Below, piece by piece: positions 6,876 to 18,622 of a stretch of 22,556 bases of DNA (the stretch's first letter is position 1; each line of letters starts with the position of its first letter). The notes below the pieces were generated by a model. It did not search any database. It saw only the letters and a program-made list of their open reading frames with translations, and was not told the origin of the DNA. Position numbers and translations under genes: made by a program. Origin of the DNA: a virus; IMG/VR virus record IMGVR_UViG_3300032462_000098, positions 1 through 22,556 of that record; one strand, written 5' to 3'.

Positions 6876-7084
6876 TATTTTATTAATTTATTTATATCTA
6901 TTTTTAAAAGTAATTTTTTTAATTCATTTAAAACTTCATAGCCGGGAGGAGGATCTTTACTCTCCCATTTTTTTACAAAATGTAATTTTAAGTGAGATAA
7001 CATTTCTGCCATTTCTAAAGAAGCTAACCATCTGTTAACCTCTTCTTCATTTGTTGTTTCAAATTTATATACTGTTTTCTCCAT
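6875..7084 (-). CDS. Small protein, unknown
   Basis: A 69-residue frame, Glu-rich at the N-terminus (TNEEEVNRW) with Lys/Leu-rich helices to the end and a central Pro-Pro-Pro-Gly turn. It starts at TAATG, overlapping the stop of the MazG-like gene, and ends in TAATG for the next gene. This implies coupled translation. Not recognised. Confidence 0.65.
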   Translation of the reverse strand: MEKTVYKFETTNEEEVNRWLASLEMAEMLSHLKLHFVKKWESKDPPPGYEVLNELKKLLLKIDINKLIK

Positions 7085-15697: not shown

Positions 15698-16685
15698 TTA
15701 AAATAGTTTAAATTGTTCTGTTTTTGCATTATTGCTAGGTTTAATTACTGGATCTATTATTTTTCTACATTCTTCTATATAGTATAAATACTGTATATTA
15801 TAATCTTCTTTTTTAATATAATCCATAAACATTTCCACATTCCATCCTTTAATTGTTGCTTGAGTTTTTCCTAAACTTTTACCAGATGTAAAGTTTTTAA
15901 GTAGTTTTTTCTTTGTGTTAGCTATATAAAATCTTAACACTTTATCCTTTAATACTTTATTACTTTCGCCTTCCTCTATTAAAGTGTAATTACTTACACT
16001 TGCTTTAAGGCCTATACAAAAATCAAATATTCCTTTATTTTTTATAACCTGATTTCCTATAGTATAATCATTACCATTCATATGATTAATAACTGTATTT
16101 TTAATTGATACATTGTTTACTATATAATTAGCAATTGCTATTGGTACAATTCTATTACTACTATTTTTATGAAAGTCTTTGTCTATTTCAAAACATCCTT
16201 TTAGTTTAACAGAACCATCACTATAAACACTTGAATAATTATTTACATCCTTTACAAACATTTTGGTATAATCTGCTTCTTCTAGTTCAAGCTTAGTATG
16301 TTTTTCCCAATACCTACATATGTTATTAATTTTATCTTCATATTTTTTTGGAAACCTAAATGTTGCACCATCAGTGTTACTTTGAATACATGTAATCTTA
16401 TCAGAAAGTAATAATATTCTTTCTATCAACATCATTAAGCTTAATTGACCATTAACAGTTGTTTGATAAGTATATAGTTTATCATATAAAAAACTATATT
16501 CTGATTGTGATTTTCCATACACACCATTTAATGCAATTTTTATTGCATAATTTTCAGCAAAATGCGTTTTTTTAGAATATGACTTCCTCTCATTAAATAA
16601 ACCATTATACACTACACCAAATTCTTTACCCAAATGATTGGGGTATAAATCATTTTGTATAGCAAGCATTGGGTAAAAGCTGGTA
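15698..16685 (-). CDS. DNA polymerase, exon 2 (motifs A end, B, C)
   Basis: The C-terminal exon of the split polymerase, joined at 16685 to exon 1 (17697). It begins mid-codon and completes Val309, then Thr-Ser-Phe-Tyr-Pro-Met of motif A. It carries motif B Lys358-x3-Asn362-Gly-Val-Tyr-Gly and motif C Ser-Asn-Thr-Asp414-Gly in place of the usual DTDS. This is a family B-like layout with TDG at the second metal site. Exon lengths 926 + 988 = 1914 nt give 637 residues plus a stop. Counting from the ATG at 16669 alone would miss the catalytic region. This exon alone has no start of its own. Confidence 0.9.
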
Positions 16686-16721
16686 CTTTTTTGTTAATCT
16701 CACATTTCTGTGAGTATCGGA

Positions 16722-17390
16722 CTATATCTTAAGTTTTTTAGTCCATTTAAATCCGTATATTGTTGGTTTATAACCATTACATACGGCATAAATGTTTTGC
16801 CATTTATAAGTTGGATTCTTTGTTATAATTTCTTTAAGATTGGCAAAAGATGCTAATACTTCTCCTGTATTTTTATCTATTTTTTGAAAAGTATATTTTT
16901 CTTTTGCTTTTGATACGTTTTTAGCCATTTGCTTTTTTACATCTGGGTTATTTTTCCAAAATTCCCTATTTCTGTCCCCTGCTTTTTTTCTTTCATTTGG
17001 GTCTTCAAAGCGTTTATGTAAAACAACTGACAACTTGTCACAAGTAGATTGTAAAGGTATCATTCCTCCTTCTGAATCTATTCTAAAATTGTATCCTTTT
17101 TTTCTATCAGTACTATTATATTTTCTGATATAAAAAAGTTCTTTTTCTTTTAAAAGATTAATGTCACATTCACAAATTATTTCATATGTGAAATTGATTT
17201 TTCCATGTTTATGCCATGAATTAATCAAATGAGCATTTTCATTTTTTTTATGTTTGGTATTTAAAGCTGTGATATGAGCTTTTATTCTTCGATAAATATT
17301 AACCGATTTTCCAACATAAATTTTATTATTAATCTTATTTTTTATAACATATATACCAACGATACCTTTATGATTTATATTAAGTTTCAT
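16722..17390 (-). CDS. GIY-YIG homing endonuclease in intron
   Basis: Makes a site-specific cut to move its intron into intronless alleles. The 222-residue protein has Gly12-Ile-Tyr and Tyr25-Val-Gly27 of the GIY-YIG motif, then conserved Arg34/Arg35, His39 and a Glu (about 84, in Glu-Leu-Phe-Tyr-Ile). A basic linker (100-160) follows. Near the C-terminus Ile-Tyr-Ala-Val-Cys-Asn-Gly-Tyr-Lys and Tyr-Gly-Phe-Lys-Trp form an IENR1/NUMOD-type DNA-binding repeat, as in I-TevI relatives. It has its own -7 box TATATTTG 4 nt before the ATG. Its last codons form P8 and P7 of the intron, and the TAG lies inside S. Confidence 0.92.
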   Translation of the reverse strand: MKLNINHKGIVGIYVIKNKINNKIYVGKSVNIYRRIKAHITALNTKHKKNENAHLINSWHKHGKINFTYEIICECDINLLKEKELFYIRKYNSTDRKKGYNFRIDSEGGMIPLQSTCDKLSVVLHKRFEDPNERKKAGDRNREFWKNNPDVKKQMAKNVSKAKEKYTFQKIDKNTGEVLASFANLKEIITKNPTYKWQNIYAVCNGYKPTIYGFKWTKKLKI

Positions 17391-17394
17391 AATA

Positions 17395-17425
17395 CAAATA
17401 TAAATGATAACGTGGTATTATCCAA
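17395..17425 (-). promoter_or_regulatory. Internal promoter for intron endonuclease
   Basis: TTG (17425-17423), a 20-nt spacer and TATATTTG (17402-17395) match the Bacteroidota promoter, ending 4 nt before the ATG at 17390. It would give a leaderless endonuclease mRNA independent of the polymerase transcript. Confidence 0.75.
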
Positions 17426-17696
17426 CTAAAACTAAAAACTTCCTCGCACTTCCAAATACCCGGACTGGGTAAATGTACTCTACTCTCTTCCAACATGACA
17501 ATGTTGTGATTTCGATAGTCTCTGCACCTTCCATACGATATTAAATCATTAAATAACTGAACCACATTTTTTCTTTCAATTACTCTAATTAATATTAAGG
17601 CTTGGCTCAGGATTGCCATCAACATAAGTTGATAAGGTTTCCCTGAGTTCACGAGGTTTTTCTTCTGCTTATGCAGTTTTGGACGCTACCATTTTA

Positions 17697-18622
17697 ACGT
17701 CCCAATCACGAATTATATATTCATCATCTTCGTCAAATACTCCTATTTTTGAACTATGTATACCACCTAATCCAAAATCATATTGTGTACTCCTAAAGCT
17801 TTGTTCAATTTTAAATTCACTATTAACACTATCTATTATTATATTTTTAAATTGAGTTAACACAGTATTAAATTCTGCAGTTTTAAAGTTTACATATTTA
17901 AATATGATATCTTTAATATGTACTATATCTCTATGTGTTCTTAATTTAGACAATTCTTTAGGGTCTTTTCCAACAGCATCAGCATATTTATGTAATACAA
18001 TTGACTCCCCCATTTGTGCATCAGGTAAATTCACCATATTTTTACTATATGCTTTGGATAATTTAAATCGTAATGCTATTTTATCCTTACATTCTTTAAA
18101 AAAGTGATATGTTGAGTCAACATCATTAACACAGTATAACAATACCTCTTTTTCTTGTATACGAGATAAGTCATCACCATGATGATATGGTAAGTCTTGC
18201 ATTTTTTTCCAGTTAGTTGTAAACTGAAGATATTTTAATGATATTCCAAATCTATCATAATGATTAAGTTTAAATAAATCTATTTGACCAATTTTGTTAA
18301 ACTTAGGTCGGTATTTCCACTTATCTTTTACAGGAGCCTGTATTATCTTTTGAGTATACTTGTAGATCATTTTTGCACTTACCGTTTTTTGGTTTAGTAT
18401 CCAATCAAGTATAGGCCAATCAAAATCTAAACCATTAAATGTAACTAAATAATCAGTTTTTTTAAGAGCACCATAATACTTTTTCATTAATGCTAGATCA
18501 TTCACTTCTCTACAAATTTCAAAGTTTACATATTGTTTTGTATTTACATCATAATTAACTACACAAAAATAAGAATAAAATGTCTCTATATCGACAACAA
18601 TTAATTCACTTTTCTTTTTCAT
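17697..18622 (-). CDS. DNA polymerase, exon 1 (3'-5' exonuclease and motif A start)
   Basis: Replicative family B-like DNA polymerase, N-terminal exon of 308 codons plus 2 nt. The exonuclease motifs are complete: Asp11-Ile-Glu13, Asn63-x4-Asp68 and Tyr163-x3-Asp167. A Gly-Leu-Gly-Gly-Ile-His-Ser (about 284-290) matches the YxGG-type linker before motif A. The exon ends in Asp-Trp-Asp308-GT, where Asp308 is the catalytic motif A residue. Without splicing, translation continues 9 codons into the intron (KMVASKTA) and stops at 17669, giving a 317-residue exonuclease-only product. It overlaps the upstream gene by 4 nt (ATGA). Confidence 0.92.

Follow-up and report, generated by a model that had tools for sequence, protein, structure and literature searches.

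A phage family B DNA polymerase gene on the minus strand of IMG/VR record IMGVR_UViG_3300032462_000098 (22,556 nt, positions 1-22,556 of the record, referred to here as the window) is very probably interrupted by a mobile, self-splicing group IA2 intron, to judge from its sequence and that of its relatives. The insertion falls in the codons for catalytic motif A, and the joined exons, the guide that pairs with them, the covarying RNA helices and an intact endonuclease gene all bear on this assignment. The features are as follows, all on the minus strand:

15698-18622, split family B DNA polymerase gene (phrog_1252 type), joined product 637 aa
18622-17697, polymerase exon 1
16685-15698, polymerase exon 2
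17696-16686, predicted group I (IA2-type) intron, 1011 nt, starting with UAAAAUGG and ending with the omega-G at 16686
17697-17702, P1 exon strand GGACGU, the last 6 nt of exon 1
17681-17691, internal guide, comprising UGGUA (17691-17687; P10, pairs with UACCA of exon 2) and GCGUCC (17686-17681; P1)
17650-17656, 5' strand of P3, CCUCGUG, pairing with UGCGAGG at 17448-17442
17606-17647, P4, CUCAGG (17647-17642) with CCUGAG (17611-17606), enclosing P5; from the RF00028 match and the alignment of relatives
17516-17524, region of the P7 5' strand (R element), CAGAGACUA, whose GACUA pairs with UAGUC at 16724-16720
17442-17515, P7.1/P7.2 region and 3' strand of P3 (17448-17442), from sequence reading and alignment
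17432-17441, 5' strand of P8, AAGUUUUUAG, from the alignment of relatives and covariation
17395-17402, TATATTTG, -7 promoter box of the Bacteroidota type (TAnnTTTG), 4 nt upstream of the ATG of the endonuclease
16722-17390, ORF of 222 aa for a GIY-YIG homing endonuclease, located in the P8 loop (PF01541, TIGR01453, 1mk0)
16731-16741, 3' strand of P8, CUAAAAAACUU, doubling as coding sequence for the endonuclease C-terminus
16720-16729, 3' strand of P7 (S element), AGAUAUAGUC
16699-16714, P9 hairpin CUCACA-GAAA-UGUGAG, from the RF00028 match and covariation

As it stands in the window, the polymerase is broken into two minus-strand ORFs (18622-17669 and 16669-15698), and reading from its 5' end without splicing stops after 317 aa. 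Excision of 17696-16686, which joins 17697 to 16685, yields a single stop-free frame of 637 aa that reads DWDVTSFYP across the junction, with DVTSFYP representing motif A, as the original prediction had it. The intron breaks codon 309 between its second and third bases, one codon past the catalytic Asp308. The two halves match contiguous parts of the phrog_1252 DNA polymerase profile (49-358 and 357-660). When combined with four relatives into a profile, the joined protein aligns with archaeal family B polymerases, and Asp308 lines up with its motif A counterpart in thermococcal PolB, so that the claimed placement in motif A holds; in the same alignment, the DVNNY motif corresponds to the archaeal KKKY. 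Motif A (DxxSxYP), motif B, motif C and the exonuclease motif are all recognizable in the joined protein by alignment with its relatives. The gene belongs to a minus-strand replication block that also encodes SSB-like, primase, NinG-like, RecA-like, DNA ligase and ribonucleotide reductase-like proteins. Of 50,697 phage records, none matches the window closely at the DNA level. A search of IMG/VR with the whole polymerase as a single sequence gave no match, whereas alignment-based searches did.

Group I splicing requires a U at the end of the 5' exon, paired with a G, and a G at the end of the intron. Here, the last base of exon 1 is a U paired with a G in P1, the intron ends with G, and a P10 pairing is present; the junctions read ...GATTGGGACGU (5' exon), UAAAAUGGUAGCGUCC ... 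AACAAAAAAG (intron) and UACCAGCUUUUACCC (3' exon). The guide UGGUA.GCGUCC pairs with the joined exon ends GGACGU and UACCA at 11 of 11 positions, and its only wobble, a U.G pair, is located at the 5' splice site. The resulting score of 27 was not reached in any of 20,000 shuffles of the first 60 nt (mean 9.5, maximum 26), nor with any of 20,000 splice-site pairs drawn at random from that region. The splice sites and the 11-nt guide that had been proposed from a first reading of the DNA were thus reproduced to the base.

Covariance searches with the Rfam group I model, suggested as a check on the prediction, gave a divided result. At the gathering threshold, RF00028 reached neither the intron nor either of its halves alone; in the E-value mode, it matched both parts of the core, at 17706-17432 (31.1 bits, E=1e-5) and at 16732-16700 (22.9 bits, E=0.0029). 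The endonuclease ORF lies between the two core halves, which explains both the split score and the negative gathering scan. The strongest support for the group I identity comes from covariation among 13 related introns, in which pairing within each intron was compared with that obtained after strands had been swapped between introns. P3 occurs in ten variants, all of them paired at 7 of 7 positions (0.69 for swapped strands), with double changes at 5 of the 7 pairs. The corresponding own and swapped fractions were 1.00 and 0.56 for P10, 0.92 and 0.56 for P6, 0.87 and 0.62 for P4, 1.00 and 0.77 for P8, 0.98 and 0.71 for P9, and 0.97 and 0.73 for P1; overall, these seven helices are paired at 0.87-1.00 in their own introns and at 0.56-0.77 after swapping. 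P7 is nearly invariant among the relatives and hence outside the reach of covariation. Together, the two RF00028 halves and the covarying P3, P4, P6, P8 and P9 delineate a group I core from P3 to P9 with its R and S elements, in agreement with the group IA assignment made earlier. A mark of group IA2 introns is a pair of hairpins, P7.1 and P7.2, located between P7 and P3 and connected via GUA (PMC3428280). In the window, positions 17515-17449 can be read as a pair of hairpins separated by AGAGUAGAGUA, like the corresponding region of the relatives. P3, P4, P8 and P9, which had been listed in the original prediction, are therefore borne out by covariation, and P7.1 and P7.2 are putative hairpins read from the sequence.

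The intron is regarded as a homing intron because a GIY-YIG ORF fills its P8 loop; the original prediction, which did describe the site as a homing-type target, omitted this ORF. Its product matches Pfam family PF01541 (E 1.6e-10) and the group I intron endonuclease family TIGR01453 (58.8 bits, above the cutoff of 56.05), and its profile matches the I-TevI catalytic domain 1mk0 (E 9.9e-14). The GIY, YIG-type, Glu and Asn positions of the GIY-YIG domain are all kept, with Glu84 and Asn101 invariant across seven endonuclease relatives. The end of the gene is embedded in the RNA core: its last codons form the 3' strand of P8 and its TAG stop (16724-16722) falls inside the 3' strand of P7, an overlap that is also kept in the relatives. 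A 30-bp match to the intron at window positions 6889-6918 lies within the endonuclease-coding part and was taken as chance.

The endonuclease ATG is preceded by a TAnnTTTG box, the form of the Bacteroidota -7 promoter element. Such a box is found within 60 nt upstream of the endonuclease in 13 of the 26 site-A introns, compared with a mean of 1.2 in 200 shuffles (maximum 5); over the whole window, it showed no enrichment above shuffles. The box supports both a Bacteroidota host and a transcript specific to the endonuclease, each of them putative. The same arrangement is seen at 15155-15140 (minus strand), where TATCTTTGTAGTATG directly precedes the NinG-like gene with the -7 box 4 nt from the ATG, which suggests that the NinG-like gene and the endonuclease may have leaderless transcripts. 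In the P8 loop, a conserved GGATAATA precedes the endonuclease start both in the window (17432-17395) and in seven other loci (L004, L008, L020, L021, L022, L027 and L039); in several introns it is part of an inverted repeat, TATCCTAA..TTAGGATA.

Introns at the identical insertion point were found in Flavobacterium phage Fpv1, Cellulophaga phage phi14:2, human-gut phage MT839577 and many IMG/VR contigs, and in these same-site relatives the guide matches their own exons and the intron ends with G. Fpv1 (NC_031914) encodes polymerase, homing endonuclease and polymerase in a row (gp70/gp69/gp68). Its intron is inserted after GAY GU, has the IA2 layout, the terminal AACAAAAAAG and a GIY-YIG endonuclease in the P8 loop (~49% identical to that of the window), but its exon and guide read UGCUG and AGCA where the window has UACCA and UGGUA, and it was deposited as three separate genes with a feature table that names no intron. 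The phi14:2 PolB (NC_021806, g018x) shares the insertion point and the core and is a two-part spliced CDS in RefSeq, but its intron is only 427 nt long and lacks the GIY-YIG endonuclease; a small unrelated ORF (~58 aa) lies upstream of P7 in that intron (L003 3430-3856). Bearers of the intron range from Flavobacterium and Cellulophaga phages to a gut phage; the polymerases compared are only ~34-36% identical to that of the window. The intron copy in the window has no close DNA match in public phages, so that any recent mobility of this copy is conjectural. An Rfam search at E<=0.1 of the phi14:2, Fpv1 and gut-phage loci (22 kb together) returned no intron, although the RNA elements are visible there, and is a poor negative. 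A further group I-like R/S pair was noticed ~3 kb downstream of the polymerase intron of another contig (L012 8058-8210). The comparison with intronless relatives was favorable to the original prediction: all 81 unsplit PolB loci examined, retrieved by a search that favors unsplit genes and gives no occupancy rate, have an uninterrupted motif A, which in five loci is DVTSFYP exactly.

The relatives extend well beyond this one site. Among 2.9 million viral contigs, a pattern combining the S element and P9 matched 12, always within this polymerase family: 11 at motif A and one at DVNNY. Most of the best 80 loci kept from an endonuclease-profile scan of viral contigs are in PolB, with splits near residues 309/310, 349-357, 364-366 (a second intron), 457 and 462-468 in the numbering of the window polymerase. 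At motif A, two exact sites 5 nt apart are used: one five bases (as in the window; 23 loci, including L037 and L071, whose automatic 5' splice calls are doubtful or wrong and carry no weight here) and one ten bases (14 loci) from the start of the Asp codon, both being non-independent counts with many near-copies. Introns at the second site mostly lack the P7.1/P7.2 insertion, yet their endonucleases are of the same family (for example, in L028, L031, L032, L034, L038, L042, L047 and L079). One endonuclease could possibly be reused by different intron RNAs. Second insertions near motif B (residues 364-366) were seen in L009, L011, L015, L016 and L029/L030, and contigs of the L009 type carry a second GIY-YIG ORF. 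In L019 (L051), an intron whose core and endonuclease are closely similar follows GACGU, before UAACAAUUAC, in the DVNNY motif; the likeness of this site to the motif A sequence, GACGU followed by UACCA, looks like the trace of a jump to similar sequence. On the endonuclease tree, insertion-site labels require 11 changes, compared with 30.5 when shuffled.

Splicing, promoter use, cleavage and homing are read here from these sequence features, and they can be arranged as follows. The pre-mRNA would fold so that the guide (17691-17681) positions exon 1 through P1 and exon 2 through P10; an external guanosine bound in P7 would attack after U17697, exon 1 would then attack after the terminal G16686, and ligation of the exons would restore DVTSFYP and the 637-aa polymerase. 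The P8-loop GIY-YIG enzyme, probably transcribed also from its own Bacteroidota-type promoter, would cut intron-less polymerase alleles at motif A during co-infection, and repair from the intron-bearing copy would spread the intron.

The main challenge to this scheme concerns its mobile part. The intron might splice as an immobile resident whose endonuclease no longer cuts, or whose site has been inherited vertically without homing; vertical descent would also account for the clustering of sites on the endonuclease tree, and phi14:2 and L012 carry versions of the intron that lack the endonuclease or are shortened. We consider this unlikely for the window, where the GIY, YIG-type, Glu and Asn positions are all kept and the endonuclease has its own promoter box, and the hosts of the intron range from Flavobacterium and Cellulophaga phages to a gut phage, the polymerases compared being as divergent from that of the window as noted above.

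Other readings would dispense with splicing altogether. Split polymerases occur in other systems, and both halves here are ORFs with possible start codons, so the intron could have degenerated to leave two genes with products of 317 and 323 aa that assemble into a split polymerase. Such a second half would begin within motif A, and the first would carry the catalytic Asp followed by intron-encoded codons; with the splicing signals all intact and covarying and the endonuclease intact as well, this arrangement is highly improbable. The probability of an intein or another protein-level element is close to nil, even though conserved phage genes in crAss-like phages do carry inteins: the insert is out of frame with the exons and contains stops, by which the reading frame refutes it, domain searches found no intein domain, and the RNA helices covary. 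A mobile group IA2 intron thus remains the preferred interpretation.

The T4 td intron with its I-TevI enzyme is likewise an IA2 intron with a GIY-YIG endonuclease, whose catalytic domain (1mk0) resembles that of the window enzyme. The td host gene is thymidylate synthase, and the ORF position and the DNA-binding half are unlike those of the window. Pol I-type phage polymerases are classical hosts of group I introns that come with HNH endonucleases (PMC3428280, PMC11878797): the introns of SPO1, SP82, Bastille and Pf-WMP3 (IA2 in Pf-WMP3) share with the window intron the homing endonucleases and the conserved polymerase codons, but the polymerases are aligned there with Pol I of E. coli and Taq (family A), the endonucleases are HNH nicking enzymes and the site is a different one. 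For crAss-like phages, Yutin et al. 2021 (PMC7886860) describe group I introns in the PolB genes of the Delta group and a PolB split by an intron in the Zeta group, i.e., group I introns in PolB of Bacteroidota phages; the likeness is one of gene and setting, the passages concerned giving no exact sites, and membership of the crAss-like phages is not claimed for the window. A search of the open-access literature turned up no description of this exact insertion site. With the site filled in Fpv1, phi14:2 and MT839577, and PolB introns already reported, the earlier suggestion of an undescribed site and setting holds only weakly: the site can be seen in public records, where that of phi14:2 already carries an annotation.

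What is new here is the pattern of related endonucleases at several positions in one polymerase family, most of these positions being within or close to catalytic motifs. A further reading, to which we would give about an even chance, is that a GIY-YIG lineage with its own Bacteroidota-type promoter has specialized on one phage polymerase family and spread introns to several, mostly catalytic, positions (two motif A sites separated by 5 nt, the vicinity of motif B, and the KxY-like DVNNY), and that group I RNAs of different structure, some having P7.1/P7.2 and some not, have acquired its module. Ordinary annotation would miss such a polymerase or call two broken genes, as in the separate-gene deposit of Fpv1. 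The relatives form a clean natural series: many polymerase alleles, some empty and others filled, two insertion sites separated by 5 nt, and introns that either have or lack the endonuclease. Such a series is useful for studying how homing introns follow the most conserved codons of a protein and how their guides adjust as exons diverge. The spread of one endonuclease family over several positions of the polymerase is the part worth following.
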